Source: Bradyrhizobium sp. SK17
GTDB lineage: Bacteria > Pseudomonadota > Alphaproteobacteria > Rhizobiales > Xanthobacteraceae
Reading direction: 5' to 3'
DNA: 64,000 nt
NCBI RefSeq assembly: GCF_002831585.1
Contig: NZ_CP025113.1
Span: forward strand, 5,285,001-5,349,000
Shown piece by piece: positions 10,179-61,121 of the stretch. The translations under genes and the position numbers were made by a program. The first letter of the stretch is position 1. Every line of letters starts with the position of its first letter. Below the pieces are notes generated by a model. That model worked only from the letters and a program-made list of their open reading frames with translations, did no database searches and was not told the origin of the DNA.

Positions 10179-11375
10179 TTACGCCACCCGCCTTGCTGCG
10201 CCGACCTTGGTCAGCACCGTATCCAGGCAGTCGACGACAGCGGATATCTCCTCCCGCGTGACATTGAGCGCCGGCATGAAGCGCAGCGTGTCCGGCTGCG
10301 GCGAGTTGATCAGCACGCCGGCTGCGAACGCTTCGGCGACGATGGCGGCGCCGATCGGCATCTTGAGATCGAGCGCGAGCAGCAGGCCGCGGCCTCTGAT
10401 CTCGCCGAGTCCATGCCGCGCCGACAGCCGCTGCAATTCGCGCTCGAGCAGCAGGCCTGCGTCGACCACCGATTTCAGGAATTCGGGCCGGCTGACCTGA
10501 TCGAGCACGGCGAGTCCGGCGGCGCACATCAGCGGATTGCCGTTGAAGGTGCCACCCTGATCGCCGTGGTCGAAGCACGAGGCGTGGTCGGTCGCGAGCA
10601 GGGCCGCGAGCGGCACGCCGCCGCCGATGCCCTTGCCGAGCGTCATGATGTCGGGCGCGATCTCGGCATGCTCATAGCCGAACAGCTTGCCGGTCCGGCC
10701 GATGCCGGTCTGGATCTCGTCGACGATCAGCAGCAGGCCACGCTGCTGGGTCAGTGCGCGCAACTCCTTCAGGAACGCGTCCGTCGCGGGCCAGACGCCG
10801 GCCTCACCCTGGATCGGCTCCAGCATGACCGCGACCGTCGACGACGAGATCAACTTCCGCACCGACTCGATGTCGTTCAGCCGCGCTTTCCGGAAGCCCG
10901 AGACCTTCGGCTCGAACAGCGGCTCGAATGCCTTCTTGCCCGAGGCCGACATGGTCGCGAGCGTCCGGCCGTGGAAGCCGCCTTCGAAGGTAATGATCTC
11001 GTGCGCGCCACCCTTGTACTTGGCACCAAATTTGCGCGCGAGCTTGATCGCGCCCTCGTTGGCTTCCGCGCCGGAATTGGCGAAGAACACCTGATCGAAG
11101 CAACTGTTGTCGACCAACAGTTTTGCCAGTTTCAGGCTCTGCTCGTTGTAGAAGGCCGGGCTCGGGGTGAGCAGCCGCCGGGCCTGGGCCGCCAGCGCAT
11201 CGGCGACGATGACGGGCGAATGGCCGAGTGGGTTCACGGCCCAACCCTGCACGAAATCGAGATAGCGGTTGCGGTTGTCGTCCCACAAATACGAGCCGGC
11301 GCCGCGCACGAACACGACCTCGGGGCGGGCGGTGATGTCCATCAGCGCGTCGAACGGATGGGGAGCATTGGTCAT
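10179..11375 (-). CDS. argD: ArgD-type acetylornithine aminotransferase (class III)
   Basis: This cytoplasmic PLP enzyme is predicted to convert N-acetylglutamate semialdehyde to N-acetylornithine in arginine synthesis. The 398 residues show the class-III landmarks in order: [23 protein letters not shown], the Asp-bearing [15 protein letters not shown], the Schiff-base lysine in [12 protein letters not shown], and [14 protein letters not shown]. The length fits ArgD (about 400). The ATG at 11375 follows AGGAGAAC. The gene lies alone, 196 bases downstream of a strongly Arg-rich leader ORF and behind an intrinsic terminator. That arrangement argues for arginine-controlled attenuation and supports the ArgD assignment over other aminotransferases. 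No argF is adjacent; a catabolic ornithine or GABA aminotransferase remains possible. Confidence 0.8.
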
Positions 11376-11419: not shown

Positions 11420-11457
11420 AAAAAGCAAGAAGGCCGCGCTTTGGGGGCGCGGCCTTC
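11420..11457 (-). terminator. Attenuator terminator between the leader peptide and argD
   Basis: On the minus strand a perfect 11-bp GC-rich stem (GAAGGCCGCGC / GCGCGGCCTTC, loop of 7) is followed by TTGCTTTTT. On the plus strand there is no T-tract, so it acts for leftward transcription only. The only leftward ORF between promoter and hairpin is the 29-codon leader at 11485-11574. Eighteen bases upstream of the terminator stem, a smaller hairpin (GCTGAT / ATCAGC, 11470-11489) spans the leader stop codon. Confidence 0.8.
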
Positions 11458-11484
11458 TCGAAAACCTTGGCTGATTTGATCGGA

Positions 11485-11574
11485 TCAGCGATGGCGTCGG
11501 ACACGGCGCAGCCCAGCATCGTCGCGGGTGCGACGACGGTTGATGGCGCGGCGGTGGGTCCGGTTCAGCTTCAT
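11485..11574 (-). CDS. Arginine-rich leader peptide (29 aa), probable attenuation sensor
   Basis: The ORF reads [15 protein letters not shown], then [14 protein letters not shown] and TGA. Twelve of its 29 residues are Arg, including runs RR, RRR, RR and RR, and the penultimate sense codons are Arg-His-Arg. It lies between a promoter-like TTGACA-N18-TATGGG and the attenuator hairpin, upstream of an argD-type gene. I infer a ribosome-mediated attenuator: stalling at Arg codons when charged tRNA-Arg is scarce would disturb the terminator. No Shine-Dalgarno is visible, and the predicted transcript start lies only 1-5 bases before the ATG, so translation may be leaderless. I could not find a convincing antiterminator by eye. 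The ORF is too short to be significant on length alone; composition and position carry the call. Confidence 0.7.
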
Positions 11575-11582
11575 GGCGCAGG

Positions 11583-11612
11583 CCCATACAGCCGAACGGC
11601 CGGCGGTGTCAA
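11583..11612 (-). promoter_or_regulatory. Sigma-70-like promoter for the argD leader
   Basis: On the minus strand TTGACA (11607-11612) is followed after 18 bases by TATGGG (11583-11588). Transcription would begin near 11576, just before the leader ATG at 11574. The -35 is a perfect consensus; the -10 is moderate. Confidence 0.55.
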
Positions 11613-12733: not shown

Positions 12734-14059
12734 TCAGAATCCGGCGACGGTCCCGTGCAGATCGTATTCGTCGGAGCGCTCGATCTTGGCGGTGACGATC
12801 TCGCCGACCTTGAGCGGGCGGCGGCTGGTCAGATAGACGGCGCCGTCGATGTCAGGCGCGTCGGCCTTTGACCGGCCCTTGGCCACGGTCGGTCCGACCT
12901 CGTCGATGATCACCTGCTGGCGGGTGCCGACCTTGCGCTTGAGGCGGCGGGCCGAAATCTTCTGCTGCCGTGCCATCAGCGCATTCCAGCGCTCCTGCTT
13001 GACCTCGTCCGGCACGGCATTGGGAATCGAGTTCGACGTCGCGCCGGCCACCGGCTCATATTTGAAGCAGCCGAGACGGTCGATCCCGGCTTCATCGAGC
13101 CAGTCGAGCAGATAGGCGAAATCGGCATCGGTCTCGCCGGGGAAGCCGACGATGAAGGTCGAGCGCAGCGTCAGCTCGGGGCATTGCTCGCGCCATTTCT
13201 GGATCCGCGCCAGCGTCTTCTCCTGCGCGGCCGGGCGCTTCATCGCGCGCAGCACGTCTGGGCTCGCATGCTGGAACGGGATGTCGAGATAGGGCAGCAC
13301 CTTGCCTTCGGTCATCAGCCCAATGACCTCATCGACATGCGGGTAGGGGTAGACGTATTGCAGCCGCACCCAGGCGCCGAGCTCGCCGAGCTCTTTTGCC
13401 AGATCGTAGAACTTGGCGCGGACGCTGCGATCCTGCCAGGGGCTCTCGGCATATTTCAGGTCGACGCCATAGGCCGACGTGTCCTGCGAGATGACGAGCA
13501 ATTCCTTGACGCCGGCCTTCACCAGCTTCTCGGCTTCGCGCAGCACGTCGTTGGCCGGCCGCGACACCAGGTCGCCGCGCAGCTTCGGGATGATACAGAA
13601 GCTGCAACGGTTGTTGCAGCCCTCGGAAATCTTCAAATAGGCGTAGTGGCGCGGCGTCAGCTTGACGCCCTGCGGCGGCACCAGGTCGATGTGCGGATTG
13701 TGCGCCGGCGGCAGCGCGCGGTGCACGGCGTCCAGCACGCTCTCATATTGCTGCGGCCCGGTGATGGACAGCACGCCCGGATAGGCGCTTTCGATTTGCT
13801 CCGGCTCGGCGCCCATGCAGCCGGTGACGATGACCTTGCCGTTTTCGGCCATGGCTTCGCCAATCGCAGCGAGCGATTCCTGCTTGGCGCTGTCGAGGAA
13901 GCCGCAGGTGTTGACGATGACGATGTCGGCGCCGTCGTGCTTGCGCGCGAGCTCATAGCCCTCCGCGCGCAGCCGGGTGATGATGCGCTCGGAATCGACC
14001 AGCGCCTTGGGGCATCCCAAGGACACGAAGCTCACTTTCGGCGCGGCGGCCTCTTGCAT
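12734..14059 (-). CDS. rimO: Ribosomal protein S12 methylthiotransferase RimO
   Basis: This radical-SAM enzyme adds a methylthio group to the conserved Asp of ribosomal protein S12. The 441 residues contain the N-terminal UPF0004 domain with its three cluster cysteines ([28 protein letters not shown]). The radical-SAM loop is [15 protein letters not shown] (CxxxCxxC), and a C-terminal TRAM domain ends at [23 protein letters not shown] distinguishes RimO from MiaB. The length is normal. It is divergent from nasT; the 118-bp spacer shows no clear operator. Confidence 0.96.
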
Positions 14060-14177
14060 ATCTTCCCAAATCTGCCTGATTGATGGGCAGGAGCTAGTCC
14101 CAATTGCCGAGAATTACAACCCTTTCCCGAGGCTTCCGTCATGATATGGATGCTCTGCCGGGCCCTAAGAGTTGTCG

Positions 14178-14768
14178 ATGAGCGCTGAGTCGTCTCCCAA
14201 AATCGTCATAGTCGACGAGAGCCCGATCCGTGCGGCCATCCTGGAGGAGGGACTGCGGGAGGCTGGCTACACGGACGTGGTCCATATCAGCGAGATGCAG
14301 AGCCTGCTGTCGCGGATCTATGCGCTCGACCCCGAGATCATCGTGATCGACCTCGAGAACCCCAGCCGCGACGTGCTGGAACAAATGTTCCAGGTCAGCC
14401 GGGCGGTCCGCCGGCCGATCGCGATGTTCGTCGACCAGAGCGACGCCGCATCGATCCAGGCATCTGTGGAGGCCGGTGTTTCCGCCTACATCGTCGACGG
14501 TCTCAAGAAGGAGCGCATCAAGCCGATCCTCGATCTCTGCGTCTCCCGCTTCAATGCGTTCTCCAAGCTGCAGGACGAGCTCGACCGCACCAAGCACGCG
14601 CTGGAGGAGCGCAAGGTGATCGACCGCGCCAAGGGCATCCTGATGAAGGTCAAGGGGCTGACCGAGGAGGAGGCCTATGTGCTGATGCGTTCGACCGCGA
14701 TGCGCGAGAAGAAGAAAATCGGGGAGATCGCGCAATCGATCCTGACGGCGTCGGAGCTGCTGAAATGA
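14178..14768 (+). CDS. nasT: ANTAR-domain antiterminator NasT
   Basis: A 196-residue response-regulator-like RNA-binding protein. Residues 8-125 form a receiver domain (KIVIVDESPIRAAIL; the phosphoacceptor-region motif reads IVIDLENP). The C-terminal ANTAR domain has KVIDRAKGILMKVKGLTEEE and KKKIGEIAQSIL. In alphaproteobacteria NasT binds paired hairpins in nitrate-gene leaders to block termination and is held inactive by NasS. An upstream in-frame TTG at 14172 exists, but ATG at 14178 is a better start. Its stop overlaps the nasS start (ATGA), so the pair is translationally coupled. No nitrate assimilation genes lie next to it in this window. Confidence 0.9.
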   Translation: MSAESSPKIVIVDESPIRAAILEEGLREAGYTDVVHISEMQSLLSRIYALDPEIIVIDLENPSRDVLEQMFQVSRAVRRPIAMFVDQSDAASIQASVEAGVSAYIVDGLKKERIKPILDLCVSRFNAFSKLQDELDRTKHALEERKVIDRAKGILMKVKGLTEEEAYVLMRSTAMREKKKIGEIAQSILTASELLK

Positions 14769-15922
14769 CCACACAATTGCGCATCGGATTCATTCCGCTG
14801 GTCGATGCCGCTGCGTTGATCACAGCCGTCGACAAGGGATTCACCGCGGCCGAAGGTCTCGACGTCACGCTGGTGCGCGAGGTGTCGTGGTCGAATGTCC
14901 GCGACAAGCTCAATATCGGGCTGTTCGATGCCGCCCATCTGCTGGCGCCGGTGGCGATCGCCTCGAGTCTCGGGCTCGGTCACGTCAGGGTACCGATCGC
15001 GGCACCGTTCAATCTCGGGCTCAACGGCAACGCCATCACGGTGTCGCCGGCGCTGCACGCCGCGCTGATGGCGGAGCTCGACGGCGATCGCGTCGATCCG
15101 ATGGCCACCTCGCGTGCACTGGCGCGCGTGGTCGCGAAGCGGCGGCAGAGCGGGGCGGAGCCACTGACGTTCGGCATGACGTTCCCGTTCTCGACGCACA
15201 ATTATCAACTGCGGTTCTGGATGGCGGCCGGCGGCGTCGATCCCGACGAGGATGTCCAGCTCGTGGTGCTGCCACCGCCCTACATGGTCGACAGCCTCGC
15301 CAACGGCCATATCGATGCGTTCTGCGTCGGCGCGCCCTGGAATTCGATCGCGGTCGATCTCGGCATCGGTCACATCCTGCACTTCGTGTCCGACATCCTG
15401 CTCAGCGCGGTGGAGAAGGTGCTGGCGGTGCGCCAGACCTGGTCGGAGGCACATCCCGACGTGGTGGCCGCGCTGGTGCGTGCGCATCTGCGCGCCGCCG
15501 AGTTCATCGAGCAGCCCGAGAACCGGCCCGAGGTAGCACGCATCCTGAGCTCACCGGAACGGATCGGCGTCGATGCCAGCGTCATCCAGCGCACGCTCGA
15601 CGGCCGGCTCAAGATCTCGCCAGACGGCACCATGCGCGAGAGCGGCCGCTACCTCCTGGTCGGGCGCGAGGCGGCGGCACGGCCCGATCCGGTGCAGGCG
15701 GCCTGGCTCTATGCCCAGATGGTTCGCTGGGGCCAGACGCCGTTCCGGCCCGAGGCGCTGAAGGCCGCCATGGCCGTGTTCAGGCCTGACCTGTACGACG
15801 CCGCATCGGGACAGCCGGCGGGCGCCGCCAATGCCATCGGCGCGTTCGCCGGTCCTCCGTTCGATCCCGCCGACGTTCAGGGGCATCTGGCTGCATTCAA
15901 GATCGGGCGCTGGAAGCCCTGA
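14765..15922 (+). CDS. nasS: Nitrate/nitrite sensor NasS (NrtA-like, cytoplasmic)
   Basis: A 385-residue protein of the CmpA/NrtA binding-protein family. It starts directly with TTQLRIGFIPLVDAAALI and has no signal peptide, which marks the cytoplasmic NasS sensor rather than a transporter subunit. Typical NrtA-family motifs are FDAAHLLAPVA, FPFSTHNYQLRFWMAAGG and DAFCVGAPWNS. In the known system NasS binds and sequesters NasT when nitrate and nitrite are absent, and releases it when they bind. The ATGA overlap with nasT is usual. The 253 bases after it contain an exact palindrome GAGGAATATTCCTC (16054-16067) and no clear gene. Confidence 0.9.
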   Translation: MTTQLRIGFIPLVDAAALITAVDKGFTAAEGLDVTLVREVSWSNVRDKLNIGLFDAAHLLAPVAIASSLGLGHVRVPIAAPFNLGLNGNAITVSPALHAALMAELDGDRVDPMATSRALARVVAKRRQSGAEPLTFGMTFPFSTHNYQLRFWMAAGGVDPDEDVQLVVLPPPYMVDSLANGHIDAFCVGAPWNSIAVDLGIGHILHFVSDILLSAVEKVLAVRQTWSEAHPDVVAALVRAHLRAAEFIEQPENRPEVARILSSPERIGVDASVIQRTLDGRLKISPDGTMRESGRYLLVGREAAARPDPVQAAWLYAQMVRWGQTPFRPEALKAAMAVFRPDLYDAASGQPAGAANAIGAFAGPPFDPADVQGHLAAFKIGRWKP

Positions 15923-56172: not shown

Positions 56173-57513
56173 ATGTCTGACATGATTGCGCTCGATACAC
56201 CACCCAACGACCTCGAAGCCTACTGGATGCCAATGACACCGAACCGGCGCTTCAAGAAGACACCGATATTCTTCTCCGCCGCGAGTGGCATGCATTACCA
56301 GACGCCCGACGGACGACGCGTGCTGGATGCGATCGCAGGATTGTGGTGCGTCAACGCCGGTCATTGCCATCCGAAGGTGGTTGAGGCGATCCGCGACCAG
56401 GCTGGCAAGCTCGACTACGCCTCGAGCTTCGGCGTCGGCCATCCGCTTGCCTTCCACTACACCAATCGGCTCATGACGATCGCGCCGGAAGGATTCAATC
56501 ACGTCTTCCTGGCTGGCTCCGGTTCCGAGGCGGTCGACACCGCGCTGAAGATCGCGCTTGCGTGTCAACGCGCTCGGGGGCAGGGCCACCGTCAGCGCCT
56601 GATCGGTCGCCAGCGCAGCTATCACGGTATGGGCTTTGGCGGGCTGTCGGTCTCAGGGATCGGCTGGCATCGCGCGCAATTCGGCGTCCTGATGCCTGGC
56701 GTCTCGCATCTGCCACATACCCACGACCTGACGCGCAATGCCTTCAGTCGTGGCCAGCCCGACCACGGTGCAGAGTTTGCCGATGCCCTGGAAGGCATTC
56801 TCGCAGCCTGCGATCCCTCGACCGTTGCGGCCGTGATCGTCGAGCCGGTTGCGGGAGCCGGCGGCGTGCTACCGCCGCCGCGTGGCTATCTCGAGCGGCT
56901 GCGCGCCACCTGTGATCGTCACGGCATCCTTCTGATCTTCGACGAGGTGGTCACGGGCTTCGGCCGGCTCGGCGCGCCTTTCGCCGCGCAGGCCTTGGGC
57001 GTGCTGCCCGACTTGATCACCTGCGCCAAGGGCATGACCAACGGCGCGGTGCCGATGGGCGGGGTGCTGGTGCGGGACACTGTTCATGAGTCGCTCGGCC
57101 AGGGCTCCGAGGCCAGCGTGGAGCTCGCCCACGGCTACACCTATTCCGGTCATCCGCTCGCTTGCGCCGCGGCGCTCGCGACGCTTGATTGCTATCTGAA
57201 CGAGGGCCTGTTTGAGCGCGCGAACAACCTGGCACCGCTTTGGGAAGATGCGCTGCACAGCCTGCGTGACCGACCGCATGTGAGGGACATCCGCAATCTC
57301 GGCCTGCTCGGTGCGGTCGAGATCGAATCGACCGCGGAAATGCCCGGGCAGCGCGCACGCAAATGCGCCGACGTCTGCCTGGACCGTGGCGTTTTCGTCC
57401 GCGCGCTCGGCGACACGCTGGTGCTCTCGCCGCCACTGATCATTGAGCAGCGCCAGATCAGCGAGATCTGTGATGCGATCGCATCGGGACTCGAAGCGGC
57501 GGCAACGCTTTGA
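56173..57513 (+). CDS. Omega-amino acid:pyruvate aminotransferase (class III)
   Basis: A 446-residue PLP enzyme. Features: YWMPMTPNRRFKKTP at the N-terminus, typical of omega-amino-acid:pyruvate transaminases; GSGSEAVDTALKIA; HGMGFGGLSVSG; the Asp of LLIFDEVVTGFGRLG; the Schiff-base Lys in LITCAKGMTNGAVPMGG; and YTYSGHPLACAAALA. It should transfer an amino group from beta-alanine, taurine or another omega-amino compound to pyruvate. As the last gene of the IclR-GGT-ABC operon, 43 bp after the binding protein, it probably acts on the product released by the gamma-glutamyltransferase. Confidence 0.93.
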   Translation: MSDMIALDTPPNDLEAYWMPMTPNRRFKKTPIFFSAASGMHYQTPDGRRVLDAIAGLWCVNAGHCHPKVVEAIRDQAGKLDYASSFGVGHPLAFHYTNRLMTIAPEGFNHVFLAGSGSEAVDTALKIALACQRARGQGHRQRLIGRQRSYHGMGFGGLSVSGIGWHRAQFGVLMPGVSHLPHTHDLTRNAFSRGQPDHGAEFADALEGILAACDPSTVAAVIVEPVAGAGGVLPPPRGYLERLRATCDRHGILLIFDEVVTGFGRLGAPFAAQALGVLPDLITCAKGMTNGAVPMGGVLVRDTVHESLGQGSEASVELAHGYTYSGHPLACAAALATLDCYLNEGLFERANNLAPLWEDALHSLRDRPHVRDIRNLGLLGAVEIESTAEMPGQRARKCADVCLDRGVFVRALGDTLVLSPPLIIEQRQISEICDAIASGLEAAATL

Positions 57514-61031: not shown

Positions 61032-61121
61032 TGGCGGAAGGGGTGGGATTCGAACCCACGGTACCCTTGCGGGCACGCCGGTTTTCAAGACCGGTGCCTT
61101 AAACCACTCGGCCACCCTTCC
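61032..61121 (-). tRNA. tRNA-Ser(TGA)
   Basis: The minus strand folds as a class II tRNA: acceptor GGAAGGG / CCCTTCC, anticodon stem CCGGT / ACCGG around CTTGAAA (anticodon TGA), a long variable arm (GCCCGCAAGGGT), T-arm GTGGG-TTCGAAT-CCCAC, and a genomically encoded CCA. It reads UCA codons. Its 3' end faces the IS481 element and its 5' end faces the integrase gene. Confidence 0.96.

Follow-up and report, generated by a model that had tools for sequence, protein, structure and literature searches.

The argD gene of Bradyrhizobium sp. SK17 is preceded by a short leader that very probably acts as a ribosome-mediated transcription attenuator specific for arginine, as judged from sequence comparison and folding models. 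The leader lies in a window of 64,000 nucleotides, the whole stretch of DNA that was analyzed, and window coordinates below refer to this stretch. A sequence-only reading of the window had proposed attenuation for arginine, and the proposal gains support from the linkage of the leader to argD, the conservation of its Arg codons, the joint change of terminator and antiterminator, and the spacing of its promoter.

Anatomy and genomic setting of the argD leader

All elements of the leader are on the minus strand. The promoter that the sequence-only reading described as TTGACA-N18-TATGGG is present at 11612-11583: the -35 box TTGACA (11612-11607) is separated by an 18-nt spacer from a weak -10 box, TATGGG (11588-11583; 3 of 6 positions by eye), which ends 8 nt before the leader ATG at 11574. 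A generic promoter scan called no promoter at the leader. The open reading frame (ORF) at 11574-11485 has 29 codons, 12 of them for Arg, as had been reported, and its main Arg run, CGT CGT CGC, occupies codons 13-15 (11538-11530). The small hairpin over the stop codon was also read correctly (GCTGAT/ATCAGC, 11489-11470). Downstream of it is an intrinsic terminator stem-loop (3:4) with a T-rich tail (11460-11426), whose GC stem, previously given as 11 bp, is counted here as 14 pairs. The folding energy of the leader RNA is -76.2 kcal/mol (z = -4.7 against 200 shuffles). The gene argD itself (398 aa, 11375-10179) starts with the ATG at 11375, behind a Shine-Dalgarno sequence of its own, AGGAGAAC (11386-11379; duplex energy -8.4 kcal/mol).

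The product had been taken for an ArgD-type aminotransferase, and it matches the acetylornithine transaminase model NF002985 at 637.9 bits (curated cut-off 568; NF002985/PRK03715 subfamily); the gene downstream of the leader belongs to the arginine pathway. Among the best 80 of 591 related loci, the nearest named argD loci are from Bradyrhizobium, with 94% identity. The 8.29 Mb genome has 15 stretches that match the ArgD protein, and the second-best of them (C1:2193263, L002) heads an argD-argF-hslO cluster, where argD is followed by genes for an ornithine carbamoyltransferase-type protein and Hsp33 (Pfam). Because this cluster is also present, the leader-borne argD is a second argD of the genome. 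No such leader occurs in the 360 nt preceding the canonical argD of the cluster, and inspection of each upstream region revealed no similar leader at argG, argC, argH or argJ.

Several other genes were noted in the window. A rimO gene (12734-14059) lies about 1.1 kb off, with a MAPEG-family gene and a 98-aa ORF in between; at the related loci L015, L016, L023, L037, L042, L052, L053 and L055, the end of a rimO-like gene directly abuts the leader promoter (by eye). An ANTAR response-regulator gene (PF03861, PF00072) and a gene for an NMT1-like substrate-binding protein (PF13379) follow each other at 14172-15922 with a 4-base overlap. On the plus strand, two stretches at 56266-57492 match ArgD with 28 and 36% identity and probably belong to another class-III aminotransferase. 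The sole Rfam match above cut-off in the window is a tRNA gene on the minus strand (61035-61121).

Conservation and linkage to argD

The sequence-only reading had made its case dependent on the presence of the leader in related species, and there it was found: the same leader can be read in the sequence at 46 of the 48 loci L009-L056, which are the first 48 of the best 80 among 591 related loci. The two exceptions are L054, which has a different, shorter Arg-run leader, and L039, where integrase-like sequence (by eye) stands in place of the promoter and nearly all of the ORF, up to position 370. This part of L039 (1-370) is a natural disruption, with terminator and argD left intact. At the other 47 loci of L009-L056, TTGACA is kept and lies 30-33 nt from the ATG. 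The leader start was taken as the ATG 29-33 nt after TTGACA, and a first-ATG rule chose other ATGs in L021, L031, L042 and L052. One of the related loci, L022, is titled Frankia sp. and yet has a Bradyrhizobium-type argD (81% identity) with the leader, so its label may be wrong.

The window leader and those of the 46 loci make up alignment A1 (47 sequences). Such an alignment upstream of argD orthologues had been recommended as a search for conserved Arg codons, and it contains eight alignment positions (5, 9, 14-16, 24, 27 and 28) with Arg in 46-47 of the 47 sequences; in the main run (positions 14-16), the counts are 46, 47 and 46. The ORFs measure 84, 87 or 90 nt with indels of whole codons and the stop codon aligned in 47/47, and the spacer between stop and terminator ranges from 26 to 32 nt in any phase. 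The stop-codon hairpin keeps GCTGA...TCAGC in all 47, with loops of 8-12 nt. Outside the Arg positions many residues drift, and Asp-Asp, Val and others are steady, a constancy that partly reflects RNA pairing. Variation at third codon positions barely exceeds that at the first and second, a weak coding signal.

Linkage was assessed with a covariance model built from A1 (R1), scanned over 296 family genomes. R1 gave 36 matches of at least 104 bits, one per genome, and all other listed matches scored at most 38 bits; ArgD was found at E <= 1e-150 in 37 of the same 296 genomes. In 36 of the 37 family genomes with an orthologue, the leader lies 33-71 nt upstream of argD on the same strand, and among the matches listed these 36 genomes have no second strong copy. 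The 37th (G037, locus L154; ArgD 63% identity) has a diverged Arg-run leader, MQYASTNARRRRRARRFSAGAWDMRTR, and a terminator (by eye). Twelve weak R1 matches, considered as second leaders, were rejected as ordinary terminators after inspection by eye.

Could such a leader be a product of chance? Arg-rich ORFs and strong hairpins are common in GC-rich DNA, and the terminator might merely end upstream transcription. Consistent with this explanation, 4 of the 275 ATG ORFs of 20-40 codons in the window, the leader included, are equally Arg-rich, and the twelve weak R1 matches inspected are ordinary terminators. We nevertheless regard chance as extremely unlikely in view of the conservation across genera, the maintained frame, the co-variation and the fixed promoter distance. 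A strict detector found the leader in 33 of 55 Bradyrhizobium-type argD upstream regions, where 0.9 were expected from dinucleotide shuffles, and in 32 of 53 other argD upstream regions, where 0.83 were expected; these sets include three pairs of identical regions (L042/L113, L049/L112 and L059/L145). Among the 22 Bradyrhizobium-type regions that it missed is L039 with its truncated leader; the other misses probably stem from the strict U-run rule, given that direct reading of the sequence reveals the leader at 46 of the 48 loci L009-L056. On this comparative evidence, it is conservation, not anatomy alone, that raises the leader above chance.

Predicted alternative folds and a probable leaderless start

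The attenuator would operate as follows. Transcription would begin with the leader AUG or 1-2 nt ahead of it, and a ribosome would initiate on the bare 5' end, provided that the leader is translated, as we infer. With ample Arg-tRNA, the ribosome would pass the Arg codons to the stop, and the RNA behind it would refold into a protector hairpin (1:2); with the protector formed, the terminator would form and transcription would end after about 150 nt. With scarce Arg-tRNA, the ribosome would stall on the Arg run and prevent the protector, so that the antiterminator strand GGGCUGCG (11514-11507) could pair with CGCGCCC (11451-11445). Transcription would then continue into argD, which would be translated from its own Shine-Dalgarno sequence.

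The RNAalifold consensus of A1 contains the protector fold over the Arg codons (11562-11498 in the window) and the terminator, with 27 pairs. The protector pairs CGGAC (11562-11558) with GTCCG (11502-11498), CGCG (11550-11547) with TGCG (11510-11507), and GTCGC (11534-11530) with GCGAC (11525-11521). For the 25 consensus pairs that were counted, 98.7% of cells are paired, and changes on both sides occur in 4 pairs and 15 cells, compared with 1.6 and 2.5 for shuffles; in further pair types the alignment has no excess, 471 of 500 shuffles doing as well.

Folding the leader for an antiterminator had been suggested as a check, and it yielded one that the sequence-only reading had not named: segment 2 (GGGCUGCG / GGGCTGCG, 11514-11507) can pair with segment 3 (CGCGCCC, 11451-11445) in the terminator 5' arm. 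In the alignment this corresponds to a GGGYUGCG strand in the ORF that is pairable with CGCRCCC. Compensatory changes in the terminator, also anticipated, are found at pair 134-145 (38 of the 47 sequences with A-U, 9 with G-C), and the antiterminator follows: an A in column 134 is faced by U in the strand and a G by C, directly or with a one-base bulge moved, the exception being L021. Nine sequences keep seven antiterminator pairs in a shifted register (AGGGTGCG, AGGGUGCG), and L037 keeps six. In the commonest register alone, 92.7% of A1 cells pair; one pair shows two-sided changes, a count that 427 of 500 shuffles reach (in cells, 7 compared with 1.6 for shuffles), and the further pair types are reached by 420 of 500. 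As read from the alignment, the co-variation support rests on few columns. The duplex between antiterminator strand and terminator arm has an energy of -16 to -20 kcal/mol in 47/47; about 7% of letter-shuffled strands bind the arm as well, and in 33 of the 47 sequences one other 15-mer binds it better. The stop-codon hairpin may serve to shorten the antiterminator loop and be opened by the terminating ribosome.

The effect of ribosome position was modeled by folding RNA that stops short of the terminator 3' arm and in which the bases covered by the ribosome cannot pair; the footprint and the RNA end were assumed, and kinetics were ignored. Over the 47 sequences, the terminator 5' arm was paired with RNA upstream of it to 0.746 for a ribosome stalled on the Arg run, 0.579 for ribosome-free RNA and 0.362 for a ribosome at the stop. 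The corresponding values for 32 other leaders were 0.751, 0.316 and 0.438 (33 were given, L065 having no called terminator), and those for shuffled leaders were about 0.56, 0.57 and 0.53-0.54. Stalled pairing exceeded at-stop pairing in 47/47 and 27/32 leaders, and exceeded pairing without a ribosome in 41/47 and 28/32, with no gain in 6/47 and 4/32. Of the shuffled draws for the two sets, 74 of 564 and 65 of 384 attained the pairing of the real leader in the stalled state; the gap between stalled and at-stop pairing was matched in 36 of 564 and 84 of 384. In untranslated RNA of the Bradyrhizobium set, the terminator arm is already paired to 0.58. According to the model, stalling on the Arg run would keep the terminator from forming and so lead to read-through, i.e. 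induction by shortage of Arg-tRNA. Alignment and modeled folding both point to a mutually exclusive antiterminator governed by ribosome position.

The leader ORF is probably translated without a 5' UTR. Promoter spacing predicts that transcripts begin with the leader AUG or a few nt away from it, and comparison strengthens the earlier view of an apparently leaderless ORF. All 47 A1 sequences have a -35-like hexamer 29-33 nt upstream of the leader ATG, compared with 0.83 expected from shuffles. Among 33 other leaders, which include L065, accepted by eye, 31 have a -35-like hexamer matching at least 5 of 6 positions, and in 30 of the 33 it ends 29-33 nt before the ATG (shuffles 0.57); six further leaders accepted by eye were checked at this distance, and the hexamer is present in five and absent in L152. 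Shine-Dalgarno energies for leader and argD are -2.4 and -8.4 kcal/mol in the window and average -2.77 and -7.7 in A1, where argD is stronger in 47/47; in the 33 other leaders, the means are -0.06 and -6.5 kcal/mol, with the best of several nearby starts used. A duplex of -4 kcal/mol or lower between the anti-Shine-Dalgarno and the 20 nt preceding the ATG is calculated for 12 of the 47 A1 leaders, in part owing to -10 boxes of the form TAGGGA or TAGGAG, which resemble a weak Shine-Dalgarno, and this weakens the leaderless part of the proposal a little. According to passages of a start-site map of B. japonicum, 320 starts fall 0-10 nt ahead of a start codon and 192 of these coincide exactly with it; the main text of that study does not mention attenuation, arginine or leader peptides (PMC4842269).

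Wider distribution and known systems

Beyond the Bradyrhizobium-type loci, the survey took in 57 additional argD loci of the same subfamily: L054 and L057-L088, drawn from the best 80 of 591 related loci; L121-L130, L140 and L142-L153, from the 23 genomes outside the genus in an evenly drawn phylum sample; and L154. An Arg-run leader with terminator is present in 39 of the 57, 32 being called by the detector (53 given) and seven accepted by eye (L065, L067, L148, L149, L151, L152 and L154); the other 18 genes have no such leader. In the phylum sample it is present in 12 and absent in 11 of the 23, and the upstream regions of L059 and L145 are identical. The leaderless promoter spacing also occurs at argD loci titled Beta- and Gammaproteobacteria. 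Two of the loci are MAGs with labels that may be wrong, L061 (titled Bordetella parapertussis) and L078 (titled Klebsiella pneumoniae). L126, L127, L128 and L130, which belong to a clade with small genomes of 1.7-2.1 Mb, have kept the argD subfamily and have no leader, and another coding region seems to reach close to argD there (by eye). In a tree of 69 ArgD proteins made by a quick method, leaders also occur near the root (L067, L075, L147 and L150), and the leader label needs 8-10 changes, with a very long outgroup branch and gain not separable from loss; an old origin with several losses is plausible from these sequences.

The leader peptides differ (MNRIQSELRRRRSPLP, MDLLTRTCSASRRRRHFARSPSLVPR, MFTNLSLKRAAAAATRRRRAVDGSAREVVIG), but Arg codons in a run are common to them. 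This bears on the idea that ribosome stalling is caused by the leader peptide itself, which would bind arginine or ornithine within the exit tunnel while it is being made, with excess ligand inducing argD. TnaC, SpeFL and the fungal arginine attenuator peptide are arrest-peptide sensors of this kind, Arg-rich nascent peptides can slow ribosomes, and the enzyme could serve arginine breakdown. A ligand-binding peptide would be expected to keep other residues, whereas little besides the Arg run is shared across clades (by eye), and an in-frame loss of one Arg codon in L074 and varied C-termini are tolerated. We therefore consider a peptide sensor unlikely, and Arg-codon sensing by attenuation remains our preferred reading.

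Five of the further loci (L069, L070, L073, L074 and L083), all five of those tested with titles naming Paraburkholderia or Caballeronia, match the Rfam family RF02884 (BcKCsr7) at 76.5-144 bits (cut-off 59); the eight other loci of the 13 tested have no match. RF02884 resembles the window leader in its position before the same argD subfamily and in having an Arg-run ORF (CGA CGT CGC CGC), a predicted antiterminator and a terminator before argD, and it differs in being filed as an sRNA. Since the window leader has no RF02884 match, and no Rfam family reaches its cut-off there, it is taken as an analogue or distant homologue rather than a member. Passages of PMC10987360 list Bc_KC_sr7 (also RIT34 and nc5U30) as expressed in B. 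cenocepacia J2315, with 147 nt by coordinates, and describe the set that holds it as not functionally characterized. Passages of PMC5688073 report 82 5' UTRs that yield short RNAs by processing or attenuation, and its main text does not mention arginine. By comparison with L121, in which ATG through T-run measures about 153 nt, a length of 147 nt would be consistent with transcription from near the AUG. On sequence grounds, RF02884 appears to be the Burkholderiales counterpart of the leader, and its Rfam type should probably be cis-regulatory leader.

The filing of RF02884 as an sRNA gene and its listed expression (PMC10987360) could also be read differently, namely that the terminated transcript of about 150 nt is the product and works in trans as a small RNA, perhaps joined by a short Arg-rich protein, and that its place before argD is secondary. 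In S. meliloti, rnTrpL and peTrpL act in trans, according to passages of PMC7298713 and PMC10117765. We judge this very unlikely as the main function: in 36 of the 37 family genomes the leader accompanies argD, the matches listed include no further strong copy, and the switch-like pairings and Arg codons that are kept would not be needed for a role in trans. Such a function could exist alongside attenuation.

The usual model for arginine biosynthesis is control by the repressor ArgR. The ArgR family PF02863 has no match in the window's genome or in 18 other genomes, several of them MAGs and 17 with the leader, and it is found in 8 of 14 control genomes. In the phylum sample, it is found in 53 of 398 genomes, 1 of the 33 with the argD subfamily vs 52 of the 365 without (Fisher p = 0.10). 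The attenuator occurs mostly where ArgR is missing. We do not claim that it replaces ArgR, given this p value, the confounding by ancestry and the absence of ArgR from most of the sample. The sole phylum-sample genome with both the argD subfamily and ArgR (G500, locus L152) has a leader-like ORF, MQPDACFTRLTQYRRLLWCRG, and a terminator, and no TTGACA-like hexamer at 29-33 nt.

A broader picture can be drawn tentatively, and we think it possible rather than probable. An ancient arginine attenuator with an obligately leaderless ORF, spanning Alpha-, Beta- and Gammaproteobacteria, may be the ancestral control of the argD subfamily, repeatedly lost and found mostly without ArgR; its terminated leader (BcKCsr7 in Burkholderia) and Arg-rich peptide may also act in trans, as rnTrpL and peTrpL do. 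If the attenuator is real, arginine joins the amino acids sensed by leader-peptide attenuation, a genome without ArgR by Pfam search is supplied with arginine control, and a Burkholderia "sRNA" with an Rfam family gains a function. The leaders of the different genomes would also form a natural series in which to study how the ribosome is coupled to RNA polymerase within the first 150 nt when initiation is leaderless.

The sequence-only reading knew of no description of such an arrangement. For an arginine attenuator this holds in the open-access literature as judged by titles, abstract openings and passages, where no arginine-specific ribosome-mediated transcription attenuator was found, and the passages of PMC3616915, PMC4603805, PMC6321483 and PMC1262725 contain nothing on one. 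For the leaderless start it does not hold: passages of PMC7298713 and PMC10117765 describe the trpL leader of another alphaproteobacterium, Sinorhizobium meliloti, as a leaderless ORF at the first AUG of the transcript. That leader senses Trp, whereas the argD leader would sense Arg and has its spacing also in loci titled Beta- and Gammaproteobacteria. The argD leader shares with the his, trp, leu, thr and phe attenuators an ORF rich in the end product, protector, antiterminator and terminator, and a downstream gene of the same pathway; it differs in using arginine and probably in having no 5' UTR. The Rfam models Leu_leader (RF00512; 23.9 of 50 bits) and Thr_leader (RF00506; 22.1 of 55) stay below their cut-offs at the leader.

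Related principles are seen in other leaders, as far as passages of the respective papers describe them. In the speF leader of Salmonella, two consecutive Arg codons of orf34 sense low arginine by ribosome pausing; this leader controls a polyamine gene via RNA stability, access to the ribosome-binding site and Rho, unlike an intrinsic terminator before an arginine gene (PMC6386406). Similarly, the leader peptide of rbfL in Staphylococcus aureus involves pausing at Arg codons under low arginine, but it blocks translation initiation of a biofilm regulator, with no terminator described (PMC13009471). In Rhodobacterales, which are also Alphaproteobacteria, uORFC-8-2 before cysS combines an amino-acid-specific leader ORF with a terminator and predicted attenuation, but has cysteine codons and precedes a tRNA synthetase gene (PMC8632094). 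The parts of the argD leader have separate precedents, the leaderless start in trpL and the sensing by Arg codons in speF and rbfL; as far as sequence can say, their combination before argD extends a known class of regulators by a new family, specific for arginine and with conserved leaderless promoter spacing.
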